From the IMG/VR virus record IMGVR_UViG_3300003690_000073, positions 1 through 42,700 of that record: 42,700 bases of DNA. The stretch is one strand, 5' to 3'. Numbering within the stretch: the first letter of the stretch is position 1; the number at the start of each line of letters is the position of its first letter. Position numbers and translations under genes: made by a program. Below are positions 9,190-40,437 of the stretch, in pieces. The notes beneath the pieces were generated by a model. The model saw only the letters and a list, made by a program, of their open reading frames with translations. It was not told where the DNA came from and did no database searches. The DNA comes from a virus.

Positions 9190-10785
9190 ATGGCTTTTGA
9201 AAAAAATATAGAAAAGATCATTGCTTTAGGTAACAACACGCTTCCAGCAAAACAAATATTTCTTCAAAAAAACTTTTATTACGATAAAGTCTATCCAGAT
9301 GGAAAATTACCATGGCTAGAACGCCCAATGGATTTTATTAATGAAAATCCTTTATACGGCAGAGTTGACCTAGAAAAAGACTTTATTTACCCCAAAGTGA
9401 ATCAAATGAGACGAATAAAATCTGGAAAGATTCAAACAGATAATATGTTCGTTTTTGATTTTGTAGCCGCGGCATTTGAAGATCTCCGAGATCATCTTCA
9501 AGCTCAAGCCAACAATGGGCATATTCAGTTAGATGATATTATCGCACCATGTGACCCTAAGAAATCTTTCCTAGGTTTAGAAACACTTCATAAACAATTT
9601 AAAGAACTTCACTGGGCTTATTTTTCATTATTATACTTATCTTTCTCTTCAGATACAGAGTCAATAAGAAAATTTCCCTTAAAAGAACAAATTAGTAATT
9701 TTTCTCAATTCATAAAATATTATATGGAATTTTTAAAAACGACCGCACCAGAGTTTCCAATTACATTGAGCGGCGTGCTAAATACTACTCAGACGTCACC
9801 ACTTTTGACTGGCTTATGTATTGAAATTCACGATGAAGCTTATGATGACGATAGCGCAAAACAAGAACTTATTGACAGTCCCAATTATAATTTCTTTAAA
9901 TGTGCGGTCAGAAATCATGGTTTTATGTTGGACAGAAATGTTCCGTGGAGATTGGTGGCAGATGTCACTTCATATAAAATGAGAGAATATATGCGCATCG
10001 CCCATGAAAAGCCTCAAATTGAAGAAGAGCAAGATAAAGTCTTAAAAGAAAGATTAGCACTGCTCCAGAGCATGACACCAGAAGATGTTACGATGGAAGA
10101 TATTATTAGTCTTGACATAGTTGACACGTTAGCAGAATGGGATCAAGCTAAAATTTTAAATTTTCAAACAATAACTATGGAAAAACTACAAGAAGTAAAA
10201 AAAACAATCGCAGATAACAATGTTGTAAATTGGGAAAAAGTTCAATTAAGAGATGCTGTAGACCCTCAAGTATCTGAAACCGGAGTGCTAAGTTGTGATG
10301 GCAACATCTGTTCAACAAGAATTATGACGTCAGACTTCTTCTTTAAACAATATTACAATAAAGCTTATTTAGAAGATGTTTGGGGGCTGCGACAAATGCT
10401 GTGGCAATTTTGGACCAGTTGGGTTGAAAATCATCCTTATACTAAAAAAGTGCGCACAGTCGGTTGCGTAGAAAGTGGATTTAAAACCAGAGTAGTCGAG
10501 GAAAAAGAAGTACAGCACATTAAATGGGAGATCTATTTGAAAGAATATGGCGAGCTTTTCTGGTTAAAATTTTATTTTGATGTCAAAACGCTCGAAAATA
10601 AAATAAAATGGAGCCACGTTGAGCGCAAAAGAAAAATGAAAAAAATTAATTTTTTACATAAAGCGTTTGACTTTTATCGTGTCATAGGCTATATTAATAA
10701 AGTGACAAAAGATGAAATGCTCGAAGCACAAGATATATACGTCTCCCAGCCAGAATTAGAAGAATCGATTCTAGACTGGCCCTAA
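9190..10785 (+). CDS. Large unassigned protein at the end of the baseplate cluster
   Basis: This 531-residue protein starts at ATG 9190, one base after the previous stop, with AGAGG upstream. It has long helical stretches, a QFSQFIKYYMEFLKT region, a cysteine group late in the protein (VLSCDGNICSTR at about 370, TVGCVES at about 427) and a basic strip KWSHVERKRKMKK. There are no membrane segments or known catalytic motifs. It is the last gene of the tail/baseplate run before the replication genes, so it is probably a virion or tail assembly protein. I infer this only from position. Confidence 0.7.
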   Translation: MAFEKNIEKIIALGNNTLPAKQIFLQKNFYYDKVYPDGKLPWLERPMDFINENPLYGRVDLEKDFIYPKVNQMRRIKSGKIQTDNMFVFDFVAAAFEDLRDHLQAQANNGHIQLDDIIAPCDPKKSFLGLETLHKQFKELHWAYFSLLYLSFSSDTESIRKFPLKEQISNFSQFIKYYMEFLKTTAPEFPITLSGVLNTTQTSPLLTGLCIEIHDEAYDDDSAKQELIDSPNYNFFKCAVRNHGFMLDRNVPWRLVADVTSYKMREYMRIAHEKPQIEEEQDKVLKERLALLQSMTPEDVTMEDIISLDIVDTLAEWDQAKILNFQTITMEKLQEVKKTIADNNVVNWEKVQLRDAVDPQVSETGVLSCDGNICSTRIMTSDFFFKQYYNKAYLEDVWGLRQMLWQFWTSWVENHPYTKKVRTVGCVESGFKTRVVEEKEVQHIKWEIYLKEYGELFWLKFYFDVKTLENKIKWSHVERKRKMKKINFLHKAFDFYRVIGYINKVTKDEMLEAQDIYVSQPELEESILDWP

Positions 10786-10794
10786 AGGTTCATT

Positions 10795-11541
10795 TTGCTT
10801 TTTCAAACATTCGACGATAAAGAAAATTGTGTTGCTTTATATGCAAAAGGAAAGCTTTATTTTAATGAGCCGCCACCAAAATTAACTAAAACTTGGTCAC
10901 ATTCAGAATTTTTGGCAGATAAAAAAATCGATTATGCACAGCTTTATTGCCGGGGCCAATCGCTTGATAAAGTTTGTCCGGATTATTTAAGAGAAGATTG
11001 GGATGAAGTAAATAACAAATTAAAAGCTTTTTATAGGGCAATCTTAGAGGCGAAATTAGATCTTAATGAGCATTGTTTTTATGAGATGACCTCTCAAAAA
11101 TTTCTAATTGATTACGGAGAAATTAAGAATAAAATTTGTAACCATGTTTTTAAGACCCACGAAAGACCACAAGATTATGATTATTTATCAGACTTAGCAA
11201 GAGTTTTGATCGAGACCAAGAATAAAAAATTAAACATAGATACAACACAATTGAGTGAAGATCTTTATAGATTCAAAACTAGACGATTTGTAAAGAAAAT
11301 TAAAAAAACTCAACCATACATAAAATACGATTCGTTTAAAACAAAAACTGGTCGACTAGCTACGTACACAAATTCATTTCCTATTTTAACAATGGATAAA
11401 TCTTATCGTAAAATTCTTAAGCCTAACAACGAATGGTTTTTAGAGTTTGACTATAATGCCGCAGAACTCCGTGTATTACTTGGATTGTTGGGTCGGCACA
11501 CGGGAAAAAGCAAAGAAAAGAATATTTGCTTGGTTGTATAA
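10795..11541 (+). pseudogene. Family A DNA polymerase, N-terminal part (frame broken)
   Basis: The start is TTG 10795, with AAGG 8 bases upstream. Residues 182-200 (KTKTGRLATYTNSFPILTM) match the family A 'RTGRLSS..PNLQ' motif, and residues 218-226 (FDYNAAELR) are motif A, carrying the catalytic Asp. There is no proofreading exonuclease domain. After VLLGLLG the frame runs 15 unrelated codons to TAA 11541, while motif B continues in another frame at about 11491. The segment that normally follows motif A (about 20 residues ending in the D-I-H block) is missing. As written, the enzyme cannot be made as one active chain. Confidence 0.75.
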
Positions 11542-11926
11542 CCCAGAATCGCAAGATCGTCTTTCGAACAAAGCATATGATCGAGAAGAAATTTTAACAA
11601 AATATTGGGATGGAACTCATGTGAAAACATGTTTTGATAGGAAAATTGAAGCAGATAAACACCATGCTTTAAATTATGTTATTCAATCGACTGCAGCAGA
11701 TTTGTTTCTTAGACAAATGATTAAAATTTGGAAACTGCTTAGAGGCAGAAAATCTTATGTTGCATTTTGCTTACACGATTCGCTTATAATTGATTTCTCT
11801 GAAGAGGATCAGTTTTTGTTAAATGAGCTAAAAGAAAATTTTGAAAATACACAATTTGGTAAATTTAAAGTCAATAGCTCCGCTGGAAAAAGTTATGGCG
11901 AGATGCAAAGATTAAATGTATATTAG
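11447..11926 (+). pseudogene. Family A DNA polymerase, C-terminal part (frame broken)
   Basis: This is the continuation of the polymerase in the +1 frame. The family content starts at REKAKKRIFAWLYNP (motif B region, finger helix with conserved R and K) and goes on through KHHALNYVIQSTAADLFLRQM and the motif C equivalent FCLHDSLIIDF (HD with the second catalytic Asp) to GKSYGEM. The nominal ATG 11447 lies inside the other frame over motif A and has no SD, so it is not a likely true start. Joined across the break, the two parts would give about 375 residues, short for a polymerase. The phage also carries an intact DnaE (26777-30208), which may explain tolerance of damage. Confidence 0.75.
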
Positions 11927-11950
11927 CTAATTATAATAAAAGAGGCAAAA

Positions 11951-12802
11951 ATGAAAACAATAATTGGCTTAGGTCAAGCTGGTTGCAATATCGCAGAAAA
12001 ATTTAAAAAATATCCTCAGTATAAAGTTTGTAAAATAGATGTTGGCTTGGAAGAAGAAGCTGACTCATACGCAATGAAGTATCAAATAAGCCCAGAGCTT
12101 TATGAATTTAAATGTCCAAGTTTAAAAACTTTTTTGAAGGAGGTGAGTAATAATATATTATTTATTACAAGCTCTGGAAATATATCAGGTGCTTCATTGC
12201 GTATTCTAAAACAATTAAAAGACAAAGCTGATAATATCAAGGTTTTATATATTAAACCTGATTTGAGCCTATTGGTTGAAACAAAAAAACTACAAGAAAA
12301 TTTAGTTTTTCGTGTACTTCAAGAATATGCCCGATCAGGAGTTTTTGAAAGATTATATATTATTGATAACTTAAAAGTAGCTAGTATTGTCGGAGATATT
12401 CCTGTTAGGGAATATTTTAATCATTTAAATGAAGTCATTGTTTCCACAATGCACATGATTAATGTATTTGATAATTCCAAGTCTGTAATGGATAATTTCT
12501 TCCCTGCGACCGAAACTGCAAGAATATTTACTTTTGGTCTGATAGATCTAAAAGAGGAAGAAGAAAAAATGTTTTTCAATTTTGATATGCCGCGAGAAAA
12601 AAAGTATTATTATGCATATCCAGAGAAAATCATTGAGACAGACGGAACTCTAATGAAAAAAATTAAAAAATATATTAAAAAGAATACAGAACATGATAAG
12701 ATAAAGATTGGCTATGGGATATTCTCAACGGACTATGAACAGCCCTACGCTTATTGCGTATCCAGTAGCACCCTTGTTCAAGAAAATGAAAAAAATACTT
12801 GA
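11951..12802 (+). CDS. Divergent tubulin/FtsZ-like protein
   Basis: The 283-residue protein begins MKTIIGLGQAGCNIAEKF, the N-terminal nucleotide-binding loop of the tubulin/FtsZ superfamily ('GlGqaGcni'). Residues 72-85 (ITSSGNISGASLRIL) occupy the place of the tubulin signature GGGTGSG, but the glycines are mostly replaced. FtsZ, TubZ and phage PhuZ form GTP-dependent filaments; whether this one polymerises is unknown. The C-terminal third (IGYGIFSTDYEQPYAYCVSSST) looks like a terminal sheet, with no long unstructured tail. It sits between polymerase and SSB genes, with AGAGG 8 bases before the ATG. The superfamily call rests on the first 90 residues. Confidence 0.6.
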   Translation: MKTIIGLGQAGCNIAEKFKKYPQYKVCKIDVGLEEEADSYAMKYQISPELYEFKCPSLKTFLKEVSNNILFITSSGNISGASLRILKQLKDKADNIKVLYIKPDLSLLVETKKLQENLVFRVLQEYARSGVFERLYIIDNLKVASIVGDIPVREYFNHLNEVIVSTMHMINVFDNSKSVMDNFFPATETARIFTFGLIDLKEEEEKMFFNFDMPREKKYYYAYPEKIIETDGTLMKKIKKYIKKNTEHDKIKIGYGIFSTDYEQPYAYCVSSSTLVQENEKNT

Positions 12803-12827
12803 CAAAAAAGTAAAATTTAAATATACT
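12799..12827 (+). promoter_or_regulatory. Sigma-70 promoter of the SSB gene
   Basis: TTGACA (12799-12804), a 17-base spacer and TATACT (12822-12827). The -35 box overlaps the last codons of the tubulin-like gene. It would start a leader of about 45 bases containing a hairpin. Confidence 0.85.
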
Positions 12828-12835
12828 AATAACAG

Positions 12836-12859
12836 CAAAATGAGAGAGTTATCATTTTG
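12836..12859 (+). promoter_or_regulatory. Leader hairpin of the SSB mRNA
   Basis: CAAAATGA pairs perfectly with TCATTTTG around an 8-base loop. It lies between the promoter and the AAGGAG SD (12869-12874). T4 gene 32 is autoregulated through a leader structure, so a similar operator role is possible but inferred. Confidence 0.6.
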
Positions 12860-12882
12860 GCTTTAACTAAGGAGAAAATAAA

Positions 12883-13077
12883 ATGTCAATCGACATAAAA
12901 AAAATGAAAGATAGACTTGTCACTCTTAAAAATAACGGCAAAACCGGAGCCCAAACCTATTTTTGGCGACCCCCGGACGGAGAATCAACAATTCGGATCT
13001 GGCGAAGACTGCCCTTTGGATTCTTTTGTCCGCAACCTTTGGAAAGAGGGCACGGAAGAAAGCAAACGAATGGCTAA
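12883..13077 (+). pseudogene. Single-stranded DNA-binding protein, N-terminal fragment
   Basis: The strong start (AAGGAG, ATG 12883) encodes MSIDIKKMKDRLVTLKNNGK and then TYFWRPPDGESTIRI, the N-terminus of the gp32-like SSB of marine phages. After residue 39 (about 12999) the frame leaves the family and ends at TGA 13077 after 25 unrelated residues. The rest of the protein continues in the +1 frame from about 12998. The first OB-fold strands and the zinc-binding part usually found between 'TIRI' and 'G.DCP' are missing, about 30 residues. The gene has its own promoter, leader hairpin and terminator. Confidence 0.7.
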
Positions 13078-13558
13078 AAAGTTGAATGCTCGCCAGCGTT
13101 TTTTCACTCCAGTTGTTGTACGCGGCGAAGAAGATCGCGGCGTGCGTGTCTGGGGTTTTGGAAAACAAGTGTATGAAACGCTTTTGAATTTGGTTCTGAA
13201 TCCAGAATATGGCGACATTACCGACCCTGAAGCTGGCACTGATTTGGTTATCAATTATGGAAAACCCGCTGGAGCTTCATTTCCAGTGACAAATATCACC
13301 CCCCGCCGACAAAATTCTCTACTTTGTCCAGAAAGCCCTGAAAAGTGTCGCGAACTCCTGGAAACTATTCCGGATTTCGATGAACTTTTTGAAGGAAGTC
13401 GGAAGACTTTTTCGGAAATTCAAACGATGCTAGATCAATTTCTTTTGGGAGAATCAGACTCAGAAGGAGCTTCATCTGAAACTACTAAGTATAATGATAA
13501 CAACAATGAAAAATCAAACTCTGTTGACCAAGCATTTGCAGATCTTTTAGGTAGTTAA
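12998..13558 (+). pseudogene. Single-stranded DNA-binding protein, C-terminal fragment
   Basis: In the +1 frame the text reads SGEDCPLDSFVRNLW, then AKKLNARQRFFTPVVVRGEE, VRVWGFGKQVYETLL and NPEYGDITDPEAGTDL. This is the core and second half of the phage gp32-like SSB that coats single-stranded DNA during replication and recombination. The end is acidic with an Asp/Asn/Ser-rich linker and a conserved tip VDQAFADLLGS, which in this family recruits partner proteins. There is no start codon with an SD in this frame, so it depends on the upstream fragment. Because an SSB is normally essential, the break is either a sequence error or unusual biology. Confidence 0.75.
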
Positions 13559-13564
13559 TTTGTA

Positions 13565-13591
13565 GGGGGGCGAAAGCCCCCCTTTTTTTTT
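13565..13591 (+). terminator. Rho-independent terminator after SSB
   Basis: GGGGGGC pairs with GCCCCCC around a GAAA tetraloop, followed by nine T bases. It is a very strong stem and separates the SSB unit from uvsX. Confidence 0.95.
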
Positions 13592-13593
13592 AC

Positions 13594-13622
13594 TTGACAA
13601 ACTAGGAGGAAAAATCTATAAT
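13594..13622 (+). promoter_or_regulatory. Consensus sigma-70 promoter of uvsX
   Basis: TTGACA (13594-13599), 17 bases and TATAAT (13617-13622) form a perfect consensus. It starts three bases after the SSB terminator, so uvsX has strong independent early-type transcription by host polymerase. Confidence 0.93.
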
Positions 13623-13646
13623 GATTTGTAAGATAATTTTTTTAAT

Positions 13647-13674
13647 AAATGTACTCGTCATTCAGTGTACATTT
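13647..13674 (+). promoter_or_regulatory. Hairpin in the uvsX leader
   Basis: AAATGTAC pairs with GTACATTT around a 12-base loop and ends 14 bases before the uvsX ATG, just upstream of AGGA. It may stabilise the mRNA or control translation; the role is unknown. Confidence 0.5.
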
Positions 13675-13688
13675 TAATAGGATAAACA

Positions 13689-14807
13689 ATGGCTAAAATA
13701 AAGACAACAAAGATCGGAAAACTTTCAAGCGCAGACATGCGCAAAATTCTTAACAAAAAAGCTGGTATGAATGTTGCGCATAACTTAAACGAAGACAGCC
13801 CAACAATTGTAAAAGACTGGATTCCAACCGGATCTCGCTGGCTCGATTCTATTACTTGTAGAGGAAAACTAGCAGGAATTCCAGTTGGAAAAATTGTGGA
13901 GATTGCTGGATTAGAATCAACAGGTAAATCATATATGGCTGCACAAATTGCTGCCAACGCTCAAAAGAAAGGCATTGATGTAATTTACTTTGATTCTGAA
14001 TCTGCAATTGATCCCGGCTTTTTAGAGAAGACCGGATGTGATGTAGAGAATATTATTTATGTGCAAGCCAGTTCAGTAGAATATGTACTTGGAGCAATCG
14101 AAGAGTTGCTTGGCAATAATGAAAACCGAATGCTTTTCATTTGGGATTCTTTAGCGCTCACGCCTTCAGTTTCAGATATTGAAGGAGATTTCAACCCTCA
14201 ATCATCGATGGCGGTAAAACCGCGCATTCTTTCAAAAGGAATGTCAAAGTTGACTGTGCCTATTGCAAATAGTCAATCTACGCTATTAGTTTTAAATCAA
14301 CTTAAAACAAACATAACAAGCAATATTGCTGAAGCTTTGACTACGCCATATTTTACTCCTGGCGGAAAAGCAATGATATACGCATATTCATTACGCGTTT
14401 GGCTTACCGGCCGCAAAGCAAAGAATTCTTTTATCTATGATAACAAAGGATTTAGAATTGGTTCAGAAGTAAAAGTTAAGCTTGAGAAATCTAGATTCGG
14501 TACACAAGGACGAAATTGTAATTTTAAGATTTTGTGGGGCGATGAAGTTGGAGTTCAAGACGAGGAAAGTTGGCTAGAGGCAATTAAAGGTTCAGAGAAC
14601 TTAAAACAATCTGGCGCATGGTTTGAATTGTGTTATAATGACGGAACTAGTGAAAAATTTCAGGCAGCAAAATGGGTTGAAAAGCTTCAAGACGAAAAGT
14701 TTAGAAATCGCGCTCTAGAGGTTATGGACGAAGAGATTATTCGTAAATTTGACGATAGAACAGGAAATGCTGCAGATTACTACGAAAAAGAAGAAGAATC
14801 AACCTAA
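13689..14807 (+). CDS. uvsX: UvsX/RecA-like recombinase
   Basis: This 372-residue strand-exchange ATPase forms filaments on single-stranded DNA for recombination-dependent replication and repair. The Walker A motif GLESTGKS is at residues 74-81 and the Walker B-like MLFIWDS at about 148-154. LNQLK and GGKAMIYAYSLRVWL follow, as in the L2/core region of RecA. The C-terminus is acidic (YYEKEEEST), normal for RecA proteins. It has its own consensus promoter and a hairpin leader, and works with the adjacent SSB. The frame is intact, in contrast to the SSB and polymerase genes upstream. Confidence 0.92.
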   Translation: MAKIKTTKIGKLSSADMRKILNKKAGMNVAHNLNEDSPTIVKDWIPTGSRWLDSITCRGKLAGIPVGKIVEIAGLESTGKSYMAAQIAANAQKKGIDVIYFDSESAIDPGFLEKTGCDVENIIYVQASSVEYVLGAIEELLGNNENRMLFIWDSLALTPSVSDIEGDFNPQSSMAVKPRILSKGMSKLTVPIANSQSTLLVLNQLKTNITSNIAEALTTPYFTPGGKAMIYAYSLRVWLTGRKAKNSFIYDNKGFRIGSEVKVKLEKSRFGTQGRNCNFKILWGDEVGVQDEESWLEAIKGSENLKQSGAWFELCYNDGTSEKFQAAKWVEKLQDEKFRNRALEVMDEEIIRKFDDRTGNAADYYEKEEEST

Positions 14808-16273: not shown

Positions 16274-17250
16274 TGAAAAATAAACGAGTGATGATAATTG
16301 ATGCCTTAAATCAATTTTTAAGAGCATACATAGTCAATCCAACTTTATCTCCAAATGGCGACCCCGTTGGTGGAGCGATTGGATTTCTTAAAATTCTACA
16401 AAAACTTTGCCGAGAGATAAAACCAGATAAGGTTATTATTTGCTGGGACGGCCAAGGTGGAAGCAAAAAGCGCAAACTTATAAATAAAAACTATAAGGGA
16501 GGTCGCAAACCACTTCGACTTAATCGCGATATTAAACACCTAACAGAGGAAGAAGAACTTCAAAATAAGATTTGGCAACAAATGCGCCTAGTTGATTATT
16601 TAAATAATTTTCCAGTTACTCAGTTGATGTTTGAAGGCATAGAAGCAGACGATATTATTTCTTTTGCCTGCCAGTTACCAAAATTTAAAGAATGGCAAAA
16701 AGTAATTATTTCAAGCGACAAGGATTTCTTTCAATTGCTTGATGATAAAACTATTGCCTATCGCCCAACTCAACATGAAGTTTTGAATAAAAATATGATC
16801 ATAGAGAAATTTGGCATTCATCCAACAAATTTTGCTTTAGCACGTGCGATAGTTGGAGATCAAAGCGACAATTTAGAAGGCGTTAAAGGGGTTGGACTAC
16901 CAACGATTGCCAAAAGATTAACATTTTTGAGTGAAGAAAAATCTTATACGATTCCAGAGATTATGGAATTCTGTGAGAATTCGAATAGCAGTCTAAGGGC
17001 ATACAAAAACATTGCCGAGAGCCAAGAACTAATAGAACAAAACTATCAATTGATGCAATTGTATAGTCCAAACATCTCAGTACAGACAAAAAACAAAATT
17101 AAATACATTATTGATAACTCTGAGTCCACATTTAATAAAACCTATACAAACACCATGATGTTGGAAGATGGTGTAGGAAATTTTAGTTGGTCAGATTTAT
17201 TTATAATTTTTAAGAAAATGGCATTAAACGAAAAAAGGAGCAAGGTTTGA
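16273..17250 (+). CDS. 5'-3' exonuclease (FEN/RNase H-like)
   Basis: This 325-residue protein belongs to the flap nuclease family that removes RNA primers and flaps during replication (T4 RNase H, the N-terminal domain of Pol I). Motifs in order: MIIDALNQFLRAY (first metal Asp), VIICWDGQGGSKKR (second acidic site and basic cluster), GIEADDIIS (helical acidic motif), ISSDKDFFQLL, and GDQSDNLEGVKGVGLPTI (helix-hairpin-helix DNA clamp with acidic residues). All the expected carboxylates are present. The start is ATG 16273, overlapping the previous stop. Its end overlaps the ClpP gene start. It works with the window's polymerases and helicase. Confidence 0.92.
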   Translation: MKNKRVMIIDALNQFLRAYIVNPTLSPNGDPVGGAIGFLKILQKLCREIKPDKVIICWDGQGGSKKRKLINKNYKGGRKPLRLNRDIKHLTEEEELQNKIWQQMRLVDYLNNFPVTQLMFEGIEADDIISFACQLPKFKEWQKVIISSDKDFFQLLDDKTIAYRPTQHEVLNKNMIIEKFGIHPTNFALARAIVGDQSDNLEGVKGVGLPTIAKRLTFLSEEKSYTIPEIMEFCENSNSSLRAYKNIAESQELIEQNYQLMQLYSPNISVQTKNKIKYIIDNSESTFNKTYTNTMMLEDGVGNFSWSDLFIIFKKMALNEKRSKV

Positions 17251-17849
17251 AAGATATTCAATGGTTAAACACAGCTTTGCCTGTGAAACCACAAAATGAT
17301 GAAGAAGATTCGGGCAACCAAGTTTCAACGCTAGATAATAGAATCTACTTTTATTCCGGCGTGAACACACCCAATGTACTAACTTTAAATAAAGAGATCA
17401 GAAATTTAAATGTTAAAATTCTCAGCAGCGCCACTGCATTAAGTAGCGACCCAGTTAATTTATATATTCACATCAATAGTCACGGCGGTAGCGTTTTTGA
17501 TGGCTTAGCAGCGATGGATCATATAAGAACTTCAAAAGTTCCAATCTATAGCGTTATAGATGGCTGCGCCGCTAGCGCAGCAACATTAATGAGCGTTGTT
17601 GCTAAGAAAAGATATATGCATGAACATTCTTTTATGCTAATTCATCAGCTATCTTCAGGTATGTGGGGAAAATATGAAGAACTTAAAGATGATATGAAAA
17701 ACTGTGACGTTTTGATGAAGACAATTAAGAAGATTTATGTAGAACATGCAAAAATTCCCAAAAACAAATTAAACCAGATTTTAAAGCATGATTTATGGTT
17801 TGATGCAAAGGCATGCTTGAACTATGGGTTAGTCGATGAAATTATTTAG
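17247..17849 (+). CDS. clpP: ClpP-like serine protease
   Basis: A 200-residue peptidase. IHINSHGGSVFDGLAAMDHI is the oxyanion strand, the nucleophile Ser110 is in DGCAASAATL, the His is 133 in FMLIHQLSSG, and the Asp is probably 182 in HDLWFDAKACLNYGLVDEI, so the catalytic triad is complete. ClpP normally forms a tetradecamer and works with a Clp ATPase, and no ATPase is in this window, so it may use the host ClpX/ClpA. In other phages ClpP-like enzymes also act in prohead maturation; here it lies among replication genes. The start is TTG 17247 with AGGAG upstream, overlapping the preceding TGA. Confidence 0.9.
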   Translation: MKDIQWLNTALPVKPQNDEEDSGNQVSTLDNRIYFYSGVNTPNVLTLNKEIRNLNVKILSSATALSSDPVNLYIHINSHGGSVFDGLAAMDHIRTSKVPIYSVIDGCAASAATLMSVVAKKRYMHEHSFMLIHQLSSGMWGKYEELKDDMKNCDVLMKTIKKIYVEHAKIPKNKLNQILKHDLWFDAKACLNYGLVDEII

Positions 17850-25900: not shown

Positions 25901-26790
25901 TAGAAAAAGGTTTACAAAACATAAATTCTTTTCATTTGGCAGGGATTGTACCAGTCGCAGGCCAGCCCAGGGATTTCAACTTTCCATGGCACGATTGCAT
26001 GCAACCAATTGGAAAAAATTATTTAGCCGTTGAGCGTGCCGTATGGGAGTGTGCGTGTGTTGGCAGCGAAACAATATGGATTATTTGTCATGACGATATG
26101 CAGCCATTGATTAGATATCGTTTAGGAGACTATATCCAAGATCCTTTTTTTGTTGATAAAAAAAGGAGTTCTATGCCAGAAGAACTTAAAAAACCAATTC
26201 CCATTTATTATGTTCCAATTCACATGAGAGATCGAGACAGAAGAGATTGTTTAGGTTGGAGCGTTTTATACGGAGCCTTGACGGCATACTGGCTTAGTCG
26301 AACAATTAGTCAATGGGTCGTGCCAGATAAATATTATGCAGCATTCCCATACGGTGTGTATGATCCAGAATTTCTAAAAGCGCACAGAAAAAAAATATCC
26401 AATAAGAAACCATTTTTTGTTTCACACCGCGGTAAAACTGTAAAAGATAATGAGTATCTTGGATTCACCTTCGATGCCGATGATTTTAAGGCATGCCGCC
26501 GACTAGTCAGAAAAGAAGGCACAGGACAAAGTTTGGGCTTTGGTTTAGGGCGCATACCTTTTGAAAAAAGATGGTCCGCTAGGTTTTTTCCCCTTGACAA
26601 AGTTTTTAGCCCTGTTACAATGGAAGGTGCAAATACGTTGGAAATACCATGGTATTACAATATTGATAGTTGGGATAATTTTCGAATCTTTTTAAGTTCA
26701 AAAGAATGTGAAAAGCTTGATAAGCCTCCCGAGGAAATATTAAAATATCACGAGTGGAACCCAATAGGAGTAGATAATGAAAAAGAATAA
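25897..26790 (+). CDS. Nucleotidyltransferase-like protein
   Basis: A 297-residue protein. AGIVPVAGQPRDFNFPWHDCMQP and YLAVERAVWECACVGSETIWIICHDDMQPLIRYRLGD resemble the start of sugar-nucleotidyl transferases (GT-A fold: 'GivPvAG....f..P..d...pi....l.avera'). The later part carries FPYGVYDPEFLKAHRK and many basic or aromatic residues (RKEGTGQSLGFGLGR). Such proteins are frequent near phage DnaE genes, but the substrate is unknown. The ATG overlaps the previous stop. Its end overlaps the DnaE start by 14 bases. Confidence 0.55.
   Translation: MIEKGLQNINSFHLAGIVPVAGQPRDFNFPWHDCMQPIGKNYLAVERAVWECACVGSETIWIICHDDMQPLIRYRLGDYIQDPFFVDKKRSSMPEELKKPIPIYYVPIHMRDRDRRDCLGWSVLYGALTAYWLSRTISQWVVPDKYYAAFPYGVYDPEFLKAHRKKISNKKPFFVSHRGKTVKDNEYLGFTFDADDFKACRRLVRKEGTGQSLGFGLGRIPFEKRWSARFFPLDKVFSPVTMEGANTLEIPWYYNIDSWDNFRIFLSSKECEKLDKPPEEILKYHEWNPIGVDNEKE
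26594..26621 (+). promoter_or_regulatory. Possible internal promoter upstream of dnaE
   Basis: TTGACA (26594-26599), 16 bases and TACAAT (26616-26621), inside the 25897 gene and 156 bases before the dnaE start. The spacing and both boxes are acceptable, but there is no other support. Confidence 0.35.
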
Positions 26791-29700
26791 CATTCCATTC
26801 GCAGGCTTGCACGCCCACAGCGTAGCGGGCTCTCCATTTGATGGATTAGGATATCCAAAAGAACATATGGATTTTGCTTTTGAGAATGGCTCAGACGCCC
26901 TGGCTCTCACAGATCATGGCAACATGAATGGAATGGCATATCAAGTTCTTCATGCCAAGAAAATGTTAGAAGAAGGCAAAAACTTTAAACCAATATTTGG
27001 AATAGAAGCCTACTTTTTGCCAAATTTGGCCAAATGGAAAGGAGAGTACGAAAGGGTAAAAGCAGATAAAAAAACAAAATCTTCAATCGATGATTCACGC
27101 TCTGGAACAACGATTGAAGATGAGGCTGCATCCAAACGCATGGTTAAAAATATTTTAAACAGACGCCGCCATCTAATTTTACTAGCACAGAACCAAACAG
27201 GACTGAACAATATATTTGAAATGGTTTCTAAATCCTTTTCTAAAGAAAATTTTTATCGCTTTCCTCGCATTGATTATAAAATGTTAAAAAAATATAATGA
27301 AGGCGTAATTGCAGCCAGTGCATGCTTGGGTGGTATATATGCTGGAAACTACTGGGAAAACAAGGAAAATGGCGAAGATGCAGTTTTAGAAGCGGTGCGC
27401 CATACAACAATGGAAATGATGGATATATTTGGAGACCGCTGGTACGGAGAACTTCAGTGGAACGCCATTCCAGATCAACATAAGCTAAATAAATATATTA
27501 TTCAAATGCATCATGAATTTGGAATTCCCCTAATTTCAACTGCAGATAGTCATTACCCGAACCCAGAAGCTTGGAAAGACCGTGAATTATATAAAAGATT
27601 GGGATGGTTAGGCAAATCAACTTCTAGACCAGATTATTTATCTGGCGAAATGCCCGAAAGTTTAGAACAAATAGGTTATGAGCTATATCCAAAGAATGGT
27701 CAACAGATGTGGGATGCCTACAAATATTATTCAGACTATTGCGGGGTAGAATACAATGATGATTTAATTCGTTATTCTCTTGAAGAAACGCATCAGATTG
27801 CTCACAGTCGTATTGACAGTTTCATTCCGGACGATACGGTAAGACTACCAGATTTTGTCGTACCAGACAATTCAACAGCAGAACAAACTCTGGCTAGTTT
27901 ATGTGTAGATCAATTACGTTCAATGAAGCTGCATCACAATAAGGAATACACCGATCGTATGCGCGAAGAATTAGAAGTTATTGGCGACCGCGGTTTCAGT
28001 AAATATTTTCTAACAATGAATGCCGTGTCGGCCAAAGCAAATGAAATTCAATTAACTGGCCCTGGCCGCGGCTCTGCTGCCGGTTCTTTAGTTGCATATG
28101 CTCTTGGAATTACACAAGTAGATCCAATTAAATACAATTTGCTTTTCTCTCGATTCTTGAGGCGAGACGCAAAAGACTATCCAGATATCGATTATGATGT
28201 TTCGGATCCGATGGAGCTGAAAGAATTATTAATGGAAGAATGGGGTCGCAGCACCGTGGTTCCAATTTCCAACTTTAATACTTTGCAGCTCCGATCTTTG
28301 ATTAAAGACGTTTCAAAGTTTTATGGTGTGCCATTTACAGAGGTTAACTTAGTAACTTCTAGAATGCTAAAGGAAGCAACTCCATTGGCAAAAAAGAAGC
28401 ACGGAATTAAATCAGGGGTATACGCACCAACTTTTGAAGAGGTGATGGAGTTCTCTGATTCTTTAAAAGCATTTTTAAATAAATATCCTCGCATTGCAGA
28501 TCACATTAATGTTTTACATGGTCAAACGAGATCAGTCTCACGACATGCGGGAGGCGTTGTTATTGGAGAAAACTTAAATCGTTGTATGCCTTTAATTAAT
28601 AGTGGAGGAATTACACAAACTCCATGGTCAGAGGGTCAAAATGTTAGACATCTCGAACCTTTAGGGTACATTAAGTTTGACATCCTTGGACTTTCAACTT
28701 TGAAAATGATTGAAGGTGCAATTGCACATATTTTGAAACGACATCGTGGCATTGAAAACCCAACGTTTGAAGAGATTCAAGATTATTATAATGAGAATCT
28801 CCACCCTAACAAGATCGATTTTAATGACCAAAAAGTATACACTAATATTTTCCACAAGGGCAAATGGGCTGGCATTTTCCAATTTACAGAAGAGGGTGCT
28901 CAGAATTTTTGCAAAAAAGCAAAGCCTCGAAATATAATTGATATTGCTGCAATCACTTCTATTTACAGGCCCGGGCCATTAGGGGCCGACGTTGACAAAC
29001 TTTATGTGAGAGCTAAGAAAAACCCTGAAGATATAGTTTATGAACATGAACTAGTAAAAGAAATCACAAAGGAAACTTATGGTTTTCTTATCTTTCAAGA
29101 ACAGATTGCACTGTTGGCACACAAACTTGGTAAAAACTTAAGTTTGGACGAAGGCAACAAACTTCGAAAGCTTTTAACCAAGAAAGGAACTGGAGAAGTA
29201 GCAAAAGAAAAGTTAAAAATTAAACAAAAATTTATCGCTGGGTGTATTGAGAAAGAATTGACAGAAGAATGGGCAAACAAAATGTGGCAAAAGTTTGAGT
29301 TCTTTTCAGGATACGGCTTTAATAAATCTCATGCAGTTTCTTATTCTGCCCTTTCTTATCAATGCGCTTGGTTGTTTAATTATTATCCTGTAGAATGGAT
29401 GGCTGCATTTTTAGATAAAGAACCGGAGACCCGAAAAGAAAAAGCAATTAATCTTGCGAAAAAGTTTAAGTTTAAAATTCAATCAATTGATATAAATAAA
29501 TCCGGCGTTGTTTGGGAAATTGCTGAAGATAATAAAACGTTAATTCAGCCCTTAACTTCTCTTAAGGGCTTAGGAAGCAAAGCAATGGAGCAAATTATCG
29601 ATAACCGACCTTTTAATGTAATTGAAGATTTTCTTTTCAGCGAAGATATTATTTATAGCAAATTAAATAAAAAAGCTCTTGATGTTTTAGCTCGAAGTGA

Positions 29701-30208
29701 AGCTTTGGACTGTTTAATTGATGATAGATTCACAGGTACGAAACATTTTTGGACTGCCACAGTAGTTGAACGACCAAAAAATAAAAAGAAACTTGAAGAG
29801 AACATAGAACTTTATAAACCAGAAGGCGAATTTTCAAACAAAGAAAGAATTGAAAATTTAGTATCACTGACTGGTATCTTTCCAATGGACTTGGTAATGG
29901 ATGAGAAAATTCTTAAAAGATTAGAAGACTATCAAGTCCCGCCACTTGGAAATTGGGATAACGATTTAGGAGTTGCTTGGTTTATTCCGAGAGAAGTTAT
30001 TGAAAAGAAAACTAAAAATGGAAAACCCTATTGGATCATAAAAACAATTGACAATACTTCAATCCAAAATAGTATTAAATGCTGGGGTGTAAAACCAAAA
30101 AGAGATATTATTCATCTCAATCGTCCTTACATGAGCAGATTGGATTATGATGAACAATGGGGTTTTAGTACGAGATCAATTAAATATAATTTTAGACTTT
30201 TAGGATAA
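26777..30208 (+). CDS. dnaE: DNA polymerase III alpha subunit (DnaE)
   Basis: A 1143-residue family C polymerase. The N-terminal PHP domain starts LHAHSVAGSPFDG and LALTDHGNMNGM (metal-binding His/Asp). The palm carries GPGRGSAAGSLVAYALGIT, then YPDIDYDVSDP with the first two catalytic Asp residues, and the third in YIKFDILGLSTLKM. Fingers and duplex-binding parts (YRPGPLGADVD, FQEQIALLAHKLG, FSGYGFNKSHAVSYSALSYQ) and the C-terminal HhH and OB regions (SLKGLGSKAMEQI) all look intact. No exonuclease domain is fused. It probably provides the main polymerase, with the damaged family A enzyme beside it. The SD is AGGAG. Confidence 0.95.
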   Translation: MKKNNIPFAGLHAHSVAGSPFDGLGYPKEHMDFAFENGSDALALTDHGNMNGMAYQVLHAKKMLEEGKNFKPIFGIEAYFLPNLAKWKGEYERVKADKKTKSSIDDSRSGTTIEDEAASKRMVKNILNRRRHLILLAQNQTGLNNIFEMVSKSFSKENFYRFPRIDYKMLKKYNEGVIAASACLGGIYAGNYWENKENGEDAVLEAVRHTTMEMMDIFGDRWYGELQWNAIPDQHKLNKYIIQMHHEFGIPLISTADSHYPNPEAWKDRELYKRLGWLGKSTSRPDYLSGEMPESLEQIGYELYPKNGQQMWDAYKYYSDYCGVEYNDDLIRYSLEETHQIAHSRIDSFIPDDTVRLPDFVVPDNSTAEQTLASLCVDQLRSMKLHHNKEYTDRMREELEVIGDRGFSKYFLTMNAVSAKANEIQLTGPGRGSAAGSLVAYALGITQVDPIKYNLLFSRFLRRDAKDYPDIDYDVSDPMELKELLMEEWGRSTVVPISNFNTLQLRSLIKDVSKFYGVPFTEVNLVTSRMLKEATPLAKKKHGIKSGVYAPTFEEVMEFSDSLKAFLNKYPRIADHINVLHGQTRSVSRHAGGVVIGENLNRCMPLINSGGITQTPWSEGQNVRHLEPLGYIKFDILGLSTLKMIEGAIAHILKRHRGIENPTFEEIQDYYNENLHPNKIDFNDQKVYTNIFHKGKWAGIFQFTEEGAQNFCKKAKPRNIIDIAAITSIYRPGPLGADVDKLYVRAKKNPEDIVYEHELVKEITKETYGFLIFQEQIALLAHKLGKNLSLDEGNKLRKLLTKKGTGEVAKEKLKIKQKFIAGCIEKELTEEWANKMWQKFEFFSGYGFNKSHAVSYSALSYQCAWLFNYYPVEWMAAFLDKEPETRKEKAINLAKKFKFKIQSIDINKSGVVWEIAEDNKTLIQPLTSLKGLGSKAMEQIIDNRPFNVIEDFLFSEDIIYSKLNKKALDVLARSEALDCLIDDRFTGTKHFWTATVVERPKNKKKLEENIELYKPEGEFSNKERIENLVSLTGIFPMDLVMDEKILKRLEDYQVPPLGNWDNDLGVAWFIPREVIEKKTKNGKPYWIIKTIDNTSIQNSIKCWGVKPKRDIIHLNRPYMSRLDYDEQWGFSTRSIKYNFRLLG

Positions 30209-32178: not shown

Positions 32179-32359
32179 CTTGATAAAACATAAAAAAGTC
32201 CGAACAACAGGTTTAATATTAGATATTTTTATGACTGGGCACGAGCTTGAATACCGCAGTGAAGAGTGGGCAGTAGTTTTATTTTCAGATAATTCGGCCA
32301 CATCGAGAGCACCCCTTGAACTATTAAAAGATAATTGGGAGGTTATTAGTGAAATTTAA
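32165..32359 (+). CDS. Small SH3-like unknown protein
   Basis: A 64-residue protein, MKVGDLIKHKKVRTTGLILD followed by IFMTGHELEYRSEEWAVVLF and an end with DNWEVISEI. The 'vGDlik......GlIld' and 'W.vvlfsd' strands are common in short phage barrels of unknown role. It overlaps both neighbours. No further evidence. Confidence 0.6.
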   Translation: MKVGDLIKHKKVRTTGLILDIFMTGHELEYRSEEWAVVLFSDNSATSRAPLELLKDNWEVISEI

Positions 32360-33392
32360 AGAAGCTTTAACATATGATGATGTATTGTTAGTGCCTCAAT
32401 ATTCGGACATCGAGAGTCGGAAAGAGATAGACATTGGTAACGATTTAGATAAGAATATTCATCTAGGGTTTCCAATAATTTCGGCACCAATGGATAGTGT
32501 TACGGGGTTAGAAATGGCATATGCTCTAGGCAGTAAAGATGGCTTAGGAGTTGTACACAGATATATGACAATTGAAGAACAAGCAACCTTGATAAGAGAG
32601 CTACACTCTTCATTACCAGTCGGAAAGTTATTTTCAATTAATATCGCCGCGGCAGTTGGTGTGAGGGGAGACTATTTTGAGCGTGCAATGGAACTGGTCA
32701 ACAACGGAGCAAATATACTGTGTATCGATGTGGCACACGGTCATCACATCTTAGTCAAGAAAGCAATTGATACAATTAAGTCAAAATTTGATGATGTACA
32801 TATTATGGCTGGCAATGTTGCAACAAAAGAAGGCTACATCGCACTTTCTAGATGGGGTGCTGATTCTGTGCGCTGCAATGTTGGCGGCGGCTCGATATGT
32901 TCTACAAGAGTTCAAACGGGCCATGGCATGCCCGGACTACACACTGTATTTGATTGTGTAGCGGCGAAAGAAGGAAATGCAAAAATAATTGCCGATGGAG
33001 GAATTAGAACTTCCGGAGATATTGTGAAGGCACTAGCCGCTGGTGCTGATTTTGTAATGTTGGGCTCAATGTTGGCTGGTACAAAAGAATCTCCTGGTTT
33101 TATCATTGAAAAAAAAGATGGCACCGCATACAAACTTTACAGAGGAATGGCTAGCAAAGACGCTCAAATAGATTGGCGAGGCCAATATTCATCAAACGAA
33201 GGAATATCAACAACAATCCCATACAAAGGCCCAGTGGACGCAGTTTTAGAAGATTTGTTTGGTGGAATAAGATCAGGTCTTTCTTATTCTGGTGTTAGAA
33301 ATATTAAAGAATTGCAGGAAAATGCAATTTTTACAAGGCAAACAACAGCAGGCCGCGTTGAAAGCGGAACGCATATTTTAAGGAAAATGTAA
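32349..33392 (+). CDS. IMP dehydrogenase/GMP reductase-like enzyme without CBS domains
   Basis: A 347-residue TIM-barrel enzyme. LTYDDVLLVPQYS starts the barrel, FPIISAPMDSVTG and IMAGNVATKEG follow, and the catalytic loop is GGGSICSTRVQTGHGMPGL with the active cysteine. Later ADGGIRTSGDIVKALAAGA, YRGMAS and GPVDAVLEDLFGGIRSGLSYSG complete the family. IMP dehydrogenases carry two CBS domains (about 490 residues); these are absent, and the length fits GMP reductase (about 346 residues). The loop and 'YRGMAS' do not settle which reaction is catalysed. The start is GTG 32349 with GGGAGG upstream. It would shift purine pools toward or away from GMP. Confidence 0.85.
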   Translation: MKFKEALTYDDVLLVPQYSDIESRKEIDIGNDLDKNIHLGFPIISAPMDSVTGLEMAYALGSKDGLGVVHRYMTIEEQATLIRELHSSLPVGKLFSINIAAAVGVRGDYFERAMELVNNGANILCIDVAHGHHILVKKAIDTIKSKFDDVHIMAGNVATKEGYIALSRWGADSVRCNVGGGSICSTRVQTGHGMPGLHTVFDCVAAKEGNAKIIADGGIRTSGDIVKALAAGADFVMLGSMLAGTKESPGFIIEKKDGTAYKLYRGMASKDAQIDWRGQYSSNEGISTTIPYKGPVDAVLEDLFGGIRSGLSYSGVRNIKELQENAIFTRQTTAGRVESGTHILRKM

Positions 33393-38865: not shown

Positions 38866-40437
38866 GTGTCACGGAAATATGAATCTGATTTAAAACTTCA
38901 ACAAAAAATTTTAAAGGGTGTTAATATATTGGCCGATAATGTGGCTTCTACGTTGGGGCCGCGAGGCCGCAATGTAATATTACACGATAGAGGAAAGGGC
39001 AACCCAATTATCACAAAAGATGGAGTAACGGTTGCAAAATTCATTGAATTAGAAGATCCATTTGAGAACGTCGGCGCACAGATTATTAAACAAGCAGCCG
39101 CGAAAACAAACTCAGAAGCTGGCGACGGCACGACAACTTCAACAGTTTTGGCGAGAGCAATTTTAAATAAAGCTCAAAAATATTTAATTGCTGGCGCTCC
39201 CCCAATTGAACTTAAAAAAGGGATCGATAAAGCTGTTGCAGCCATTGTTAATAATCTAAAAGAAATTTCTACTCCAATTACATCTGAAGAAGATATAGCA
39301 CATATAGCAACTATTTCTGCGAACGGAGATTCAACAATTGGAAAATTAATTGCAACTGCTGCTGATTTAGTTGGCAAAGATGGCGCGATTACAATAGAAG
39401 AAGCTCACTCACTCGAAACCAGTCTTGACATAGTGGAGGGCTTTCGTTTTGATTCCGGCTATTTAGCCAACGCATTCATAACAGATGAAAAAAGAGGCAC
39501 TGTAAGATATGAAAATCCATTGCTTTTGGTTACAGACGAGAGAGTTGAAACTGTAGAAGAATTGATGCCAACATTGGAATTGGTGGCAAGAGAAACTCGG
39601 CCGTGTATAATTATTGCTGAAAACATTGAGGGTCAGGCACTTGCGGCTCTCATTATGAATGCCGTCAGAGGTACTTTAAAAATTGCCGCTGTGAAAGCAC
39701 CTCGCTATGGACAAGAAAGAAGAAATATTTTAAAGGATTTAGCCATTTCAATTGGAGCAACATTAATTAGTAGAGAAGATAATCTAAGATTAAAAGACAT
39801 TCAGCTAAATCATTTCGGCGCCGCAAAGACTTTTGAATGTTCAAAGAACTTTACCACAATTGTCGGAGGCTCAGGGGATATGAAAGAAGTTGAAAATAAA
39901 ATAGAAACATTAAAAACTGAACTTAGCCAAACAGAAGATCTTTACGAGTGCGAAAAAATTCAAGAACGGATTACAAGACTTGCTAGCGGTATTGCAATTA
40001 TTAAAGTCGGCGCAGCCACAGAAATTGAAATGATAGAAAAAAAGCATCGAATTGAAGATGCTCTAGAAGCTGTAAGGTCGGCGCAACAAGAGGGAATTGT
40101 TCCAGGCGGCGGAATTGCACTGATAAGAGCCAGCAATGATTTACAAATTGAAACTGAAAATGAAAATCAAGAACTAGGCGTTAAAATTATTTTAGAAGCA
40201 GTCAAGGAACCGGCGCGACAAATGGCAATTAATGCTGGTGAATCACCAGACATAACTTTATCAAGAATTGAAAATGAAGCTGATGACCGAGGAATAGATT
40301 TTACAAATGGAAATGTTATCAACATGTTGGATGCTGGAATCGTTGACCCAACTAAGGTAACACGATGTGCCTTACAGAACGCAGCTTCAGTTGCTTCTAC
40401 ATTAATTACAACGAATGCAGCCATTATCGAATCTTAA
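38866..40437 (+). CDS. groEL: GroEL chaperonin
   Basis: A 523-residue chaperonin subunit. All domains appear: VNILADNVASTLGPRGRNVIL at the N-terminus, ATP site GDGTTTSTVL (Asp87) and KDGVTVAKFIELEDPFENVG, apical domain with VDEGFRFDSGYLAN-like 'VEGFRFDSGYLANAFITD', VKAPRYGQERRNIL, and the C-terminal half with GAATEIEMIEKKHRIEDALEA (the catalytic Asp) and VPGGGIALIRA, plus IVDPTKVTRCALQNAASVAS. The Gly-Gly-Met tail of host GroEL is absent. The start is GTG 38866 with AAGAGG upstream. The phage GroES is at 22774. The pair may fold phage proteins the host system cannot. Confidence 0.95.
   Translation: MSRKYESDLKLQQKILKGVNILADNVASTLGPRGRNVILHDRGKGNPIITKDGVTVAKFIELEDPFENVGAQIIKQAAAKTNSEAGDGTTTSTVLARAILNKAQKYLIAGAPPIELKKGIDKAVAAIVNNLKEISTPITSEEDIAHIATISANGDSTIGKLIATAADLVGKDGAITIEEAHSLETSLDIVEGFRFDSGYLANAFITDEKRGTVRYENPLLLVTDERVETVEELMPTLELVARETRPCIIIAENIEGQALAALIMNAVRGTLKIAAVKAPRYGQERRNILKDLAISIGATLISREDNLRLKDIQLNHFGAAKTFECSKNFTTIVGGSGDMKEVENKIETLKTELSQTEDLYECEKIQERITRLASGIAIIKVGAATEIEMIEKKHRIEDALEAVRSAQQEGIVPGGGIALIRASNDLQIETENENQELGVKIILEAVKEPARQMAINAGESPDITLSRIENEADDRGIDFTNGNVINMLDAGIVDPTKVTRCALQNAASVASTLITTNAAIIES

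Follow-up and report, generated by a model that had tools for sequence, protein, structure and literature searches.

What does a tubulin-like protein do among the DNA replication genes of a phage? The question is raised by an open reading frame in a viral stretch of 42,700 nucleotides (positions 1 to 42,700 of IMG/VR record IMGVR_UViG_3300003690_000073, hereafter the window), for which an earlier note, made from the sequence alone, had proposed a highly divergent tubulin/FtsZ-like protein, encoded between a polymerase and an SSB gene in a T4-like phage, that could be either a new filament or a non-polymerising GTP-binding scaffold linked to replication. Here, we used structure prediction, scans of viral contigs and comparisons of gene order to work out what this protein, which we call TUB, is and what it may do.

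The gene and its predicted fold

The boundaries of the open reading frame are exactly 11951-12802 (+), with an ATG start and 283 codons for amino acids, and the gene starts 24 nt past the polymerase stop in the window (Table 1). Since more than 330 relatives were found in viral contigs and since dN/dS between TUB and its near relatives is 0.07-0.15, a value that indicates strong purifying selection, TUB is a real gene.

Table 1. Features of the TUB locus in the window, with the evidence for each.
Feature	Position	Strand	Evidence
531-aa conserved neighbour upstream of polymerase, function unknown	9190..10785	+	Synteny
Short A-family DNA polymerase, frame broken by deletion	10795..11926	+	PF00476 in relative L112, tblastn
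Shine-Dalgarno-like AGAGG of TUB	11941..11945	+	Sequence
TUB, 283-aa minimal tubulin/FtsZ-fold protein	11951..12802	+	AF2, structure comparison, >330 relatives
T1 loop, residues 6-13 (GLGQAGCN)	11966..11989	+	hhalign alignment to FtsZ T1
Degenerate T4 loop, residues 74-82 (SSGNISGAS)	12170..12196	+	Motif counts
Invariant end of H5, residues 124-129 (QEYARS)	12320..12337	+	Conservation, pocket-less members included
T6 guanine-contact Asn candidate N140	12368..12370	+	Alignment to the Asn of FtsZ IPND
H7 guanine-contact Asn candidate N160	12428..12430	+	Alignment; loss coupled to N140 loss
Conserved C-terminal part of H7, residues 165-173 (STMHMINVF)	12443..12469	+	Conservation
Region replacing T7/H8, residues 174-190, without catalytic NxDxx[DE]	12470..12520	+	Coil in DSSP
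Promoter-like TTGACA-17-TATACT at TUB end, for SSB unit	12799..12827	+	11/12 consensus positions
gp32-like SSB	12883..13558	+	PF08804 in L112, phrog_1192, comparison with L014
Terminator-like stem-loop past SSB	13564..13583	+	Sequence
Promoter-like TTGACA-17-TATAAT ahead of recombinase	13594..13622	+	12/12 consensus positions
UvsX/RecA-like recombinase, next conserved neighbour	13689..14807	+	phrog_97 E 5.7e-51, synteny

The superfamily placement had been drawn from the T1 loop (IIGLGQAGCNIAEKF, residues 4-18). Profile libraries say little about the protein: the Pfam Tubulin profile (PF00091) scores it at 10.4 bits, far under the cut-off of 33 and with the T1 loop alone contributing, a PDB profile search gave nothing meaningful, and PHROGs returned only weak scattered sequence matches, among which phrog_29734 (function unknown) matches the C-terminal stretch of 17/59 members with a best E of 2.7e-4. 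Structure prediction and comparison, which the earlier note had suggested as a check, gave a clear answer. An AlphaFold2 model of the window protein, built from a 59-sequence alignment (mean pLDDT 93.2, pTM 0.91), matches the tubulin/FtsZ fold end to end, with two domains and the central helix H7. It superimposes on CetZ (3zid_B) with Z 24.3 over 260 residues (rmsd 3.1, 15% identity) and on TubZ (4ei7_B) with Z 24.0 over 279 residues; the best solved structure found by Foldseek is TubZ (E 1.3e-12), and FtsZ structures fill the match list. The placement therefore stands along the whole length, and another Rossmann family was rejected, the fold lists being filled with tubulin/FtsZ over the entire protein. 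A profile alignment of TUB with 31 FtsZ sequences by hhalign is collinear over residues 3-183 (T1, T4, T6 and H7) and weak (P 0.0076), and the T-loop assignments used below come from this weak alignment together with the order of secondary-structure elements. According to DSSP, helices equivalent to FtsZ H8 and H9 are missing from the TUB models. As computed from these models, TUB thus represents a new, minimal branch (267-300 aa) of the tubulin/FtsZ fold that lacks H8 and H9.

For motif counts, 139 distinct TUB sequences were compared. The degenerate signature SSGNISGAS (residues 74-82) had been read as a largely lost glycine-rich T4 loop, and this loss proved to be family-wide: the strict form GGTG[TSA]G occurs in 0/74 members (first count) versus 27/31 FtsZ, and even a loose GGG-type core is found in only 1/139. 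The T7 motif NxDxx[DE] is likewise present in 1/139 members versus 29/31 FtsZ controls.

Because the T4 and T7 GTPase signatures were looked for and not found, we do not file TUB as FtsZ, TubZ, PhuZ or CetZ. The archaeal CetZ (3zid, 4b45), its best structural match, assembles into protofilaments in crystals, and its GTPase site is canonical, whereas TUB is shorter and has neither the T4 nor the T7 motif. TubZ (4ei7, 2xka), which serves plasmid and phage partition, shares the whole-length fold but acts together with TubR and tubC, a repeat array, and TUB lacks its C-terminal tail and T7 motif. PhuZ/phiKZ TubZ of nucleus-forming jumbo phages is also phage-encoded and of the same fold class; however, hhalign aligns T1 only, there is no tblastn kinship, the T7 D..[DE] of 8/8 PhuZ is missing from TUB, and PhuZ sits in another phage clade and gene context. 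FtsZ aligns collinearly with TUB at the profile level, while its T4/T7 signatures and its tail are missing from TUB. The closest published precedent is FtsZl1 (Makarova and Koonin 2010, PMC2875224), another member of the superfamily; its S6-T7 region deviates from the canonical structure, which makes filament formation doubtful. Unlike TUB, FtsZl1 is cellular and membrane-remodelling, carries other C-terminal domains and has no DNA polymerase link (PMC2875224).

A family of uncultured phages and its gene order

A first viral scan retrieved 19 loci with TUB relatives, and a profile scan raised this number to 331 tblastn-confirmed relatives in viral contigs. Their carriers are uncultured bacterial viruses, mostly marine, that form a large group; no relative was found in 50,697 named phage records by tblastn with four different members as query. 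Rhodothermus phage RM378, which is named in the Far-T4 literature (PMC4360716), was considered as a carrier and rejected, as HMMs detected neither the polymerase nor a TUB relative in it. In a literature search that left out preprints and most subscription papers, we found no polymerase-linked phage tubulin, and the family appears to be undescribed so far.

The sole genome match (L112; CP070664.1, a WOR-3 MAG) is a TUB-bearing piece of a phage replication region, bounded by N gaps in an assembly that is called a chromosome. A cellular origin of TUB was therefore rejected and no host is inferred from this match, which is likely mis-scaffolded phage DNA. This fragment carries a PF00476 A-family polymerase and a PF08804 gp32. 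Considering that a T4 gp21-type prohead protease (PF03420) is also found in 11/12 large contigs of the clade, and that its contigs reach 204 kb, the phages are T4-like, as had been supposed.

One contig that carries TUB (L238; IMGVR 3300032048_000004) also holds a second, canonical-looking tubulin/FtsZ-like gene (L238:2688-3728, minus strand, 346 aa), with T1 GVGGGGGK, T4 GGGGGTGSS and SFDSKDLE near the expected T7. Its neighbours are a gp21-like prohead protease gene on one side and an acidic, scaffold-like gene on the other, and it was found in 5 contigs. In a profile search, 11 further large contigs of the clade lacked it; it is therefore not a constant partner of TUB, and it was rejected as its ancestor as well. 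Elsewhere in the window, a GroEL-like chaperonin gene was recognised by sequence at 38866-40437 (a jumbo-phage survey reported that HSP60 tends to co-occur with tubulin in phages; PMC7824862), and translations judged by eye point to a ClpP protease-like gene (17247-17849) and an IMP dehydrogenase/GMP reductase-like gene (32349-33392).

The gene order around TUB is strongly conserved. In about 75 distinct loci, it runs from the 531-aa gene through the short A-family polymerase, TUB, the gp32-like SSB, RecA/UvsX and an RNase H-like gene to a helicase, and it is kept around TUB down to ~30% identity. The position between polymerase and SSB genes, inside the replication cluster of a T4-like phage, is thus confirmed, with the UvsX/RecA gene as a further replication neighbour. 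The 531-aa neighbour gave nothing convincing in Pfam or PHROGs and no match in named phages. In a scan based on the polymerase, TUB was next door in 75 of 78 newly fetched loci, the other 3 being cut by contig ends.

Both flanking genes are broken in the window. The polymerase, ~394 aa in relatives, is short of ~59 nt at ~11466-11498, where tblastn sets query residues 224 and 255 only 31 nt apart, and the SSB lacks 92 nt at 12999/13000 compared to the near-identical relative L014; these frame breaks are perhaps assembly artefacts. A DnaE-type DNA polymerase III alpha gene lies at 26777-30208 of the window, so that the phage has two DNA polymerases of different families.

The polymerase and TUB genes overlap by 1-16 nt in 83/126 loci and are separated by a gap of 0-40 nt in 22/126, and a spacer of ~290 nt or more is seen in ~20 loci. 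At the other end of TUB, a sigma-70-type promoter with at most one mismatch lies near the stop codon in 83/143 loci, versus 0/143 shuffled sequences and 1/142 loci upstream of TUB. This conserved promoter, as predicted from its sequence, gives the gp32-like SSB a unit of its own. Since TUB overlaps with the polymerase and since the SSB has its own promoter, TUB groups with the polymerase and not with the SSB, and the likely partner of TUB shifts accordingly from the latter to the former, as far as gene arrangement can tell.

Loss of the nucleotide pocket

Despite the degenerate T4 loop, part of a guanine-nucleotide pocket is kept in most members: T1 GxGxxG is found in 129/139 and, by alignment, N140 of T6 in 124/139 and N160 of H7 in 128/139, the window protein having all three. 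From its sequence, GTP binding by the window protein is plausible. The loss of the T6 asparagine coincides with that of the H7 asparagine and with a Gly76 to Glu change in T4 (Fisher 2e-13, 4e-17 and 6e-11, in counts that ignore the relatedness of members). In a tree built without the pocket columns, the T6 asparagine was lost in 4 changes, 3 of which are forced by well-supported branches; an independent-pairs test had 3-4 independent events to work with, which puts significance out of reach. Three or four lineages have thus given up the T6 and H7 asparagines along with T4 while retaining both gene and fold, as illustrated by L110, a pocket-less member of the most divergent clade (pLDDT 92.6, CetZ Z 24.4). 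These coupled losses and the 4 changes on the tree argue that the pocket, in members that have it, acts as a single unit, and that TUB can do without it.

Such a pattern bears on one possible role, that of a guanine-nucleotide switch, in which monomeric or dimeric TUB would bind GTP or GDP and regulate the polymerase or replication by its nucleotide state, without filaments. The frequent conservation of T1, N140 and N160, their alignment with the FtsZ pocket and the loss of pocket residues as a unit, as for one working site, all suit a switch. However, the pocket-less lineages keep gene, place and fold, so that nucleotide switching cannot be what TUB does in every lineage, and almost every member has a degenerate T4 phosphate loop. 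We consider this role unlikely.

Other residues are conserved whether or not the pocket is there. Q124 (139/139), R128 (139/139) and S129 (138/139) are also found in members without a nucleotide pocket, and H168 is present in 138/139. By analogy with tubulin topology, these four residues would lie on the former T7 side, and the cluster is likely a contact or functional site.

Possible roles of TUB

Tubulin-superfamily proteins are known for cytomotive or nucleating roles. The explanation that we prefer for TUB, to which we give an even chance, is a different one: a non-dynamic pseudo-tubulin and putative structural partner of the short A-family DNA polymerase that the phage encodes. The overlap between the two genes would lead to both proteins being made together by co-translation, so that the two probably act as a complex. 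Phage genes within one module often overlap, and the overlap by itself is no proof of a complex. TUB would not hydrolyse GTP across the canonical protofilament contact, and guanine nucleotide may still be bound as a static or regulatory ligand in most lineages, including that of the window. The invariant cluster would then offer the surface through which a pseudo-tubulin makes its contact or performs its function. Since TUB lacks the parts that tubulins use on GTP, it probably serves the DNA-copying machinery as a building block and not as a moving filament. In a bolder and more tentative form, TUB could be the first tubulin-superfamily protein to have moved out of the cytoskeleton and turned into a DNA polymerase holoenzyme subunit, obligatory and non-polymerising, encoded by a core replication gene of a large uncultured phage clade in which GTP binding is a dispensable relic.

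Of the two possibilities that the earlier note had offered, the non-polymerising scaffold is thereby favoured, while the dynamic filament is disfavoured by the missing T7 motif, the missing H8 and H9 and the repeated loss of the pocket. More broadly, a dynamic or static TUB filament might position or segregate phage DNA like PhuZ or TubZ through an unusual protofilament contact: the nearest solved folds include the polymerising CetZ, TubZ and FtsZ, among named phages, the relatives closest in fold are FtsZ-like, and the clade carries TUB in a DNA replication context. Some tubulins polymerise without hydrolysis, which leaves room for a static form. Against any such filament, the T7 motif is missing in 138/139 members, the models have no H8, H9 or C-terminal extension, and no tubC-like centromere repeat array was seen beside TUB within 11000-14000; we hold it to be quite improbable. 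Least probable is a host FtsZ antagonist, an FtsZ look-alike that would halt division by capping host FtsZ or assembling with it, since its fit to a one-sided cap (an FtsZ-like fold with an altered T7 side) and the known block of FtsZ by other phage proteins are set against the fixed linkage to the polymerase instead of early host-takeover genes and a distance from FtsZ (hhalign P 0.0076) too great for an obvious common interface.

If TUB is indeed a polymerase-tied pseudo-tubulin, the tubulin fold would be used here as a plain building block whose nucleotide pocket is expendable, and a large clade of uncultured phages would gain a core replication protein that had gone unrecognised. The family also calls for caution in annotation, as profile libraries overlook it and only an alignment-based model reveals its fold. 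Together, the polymerase and TUB genes are short enough for direct expression and testing.
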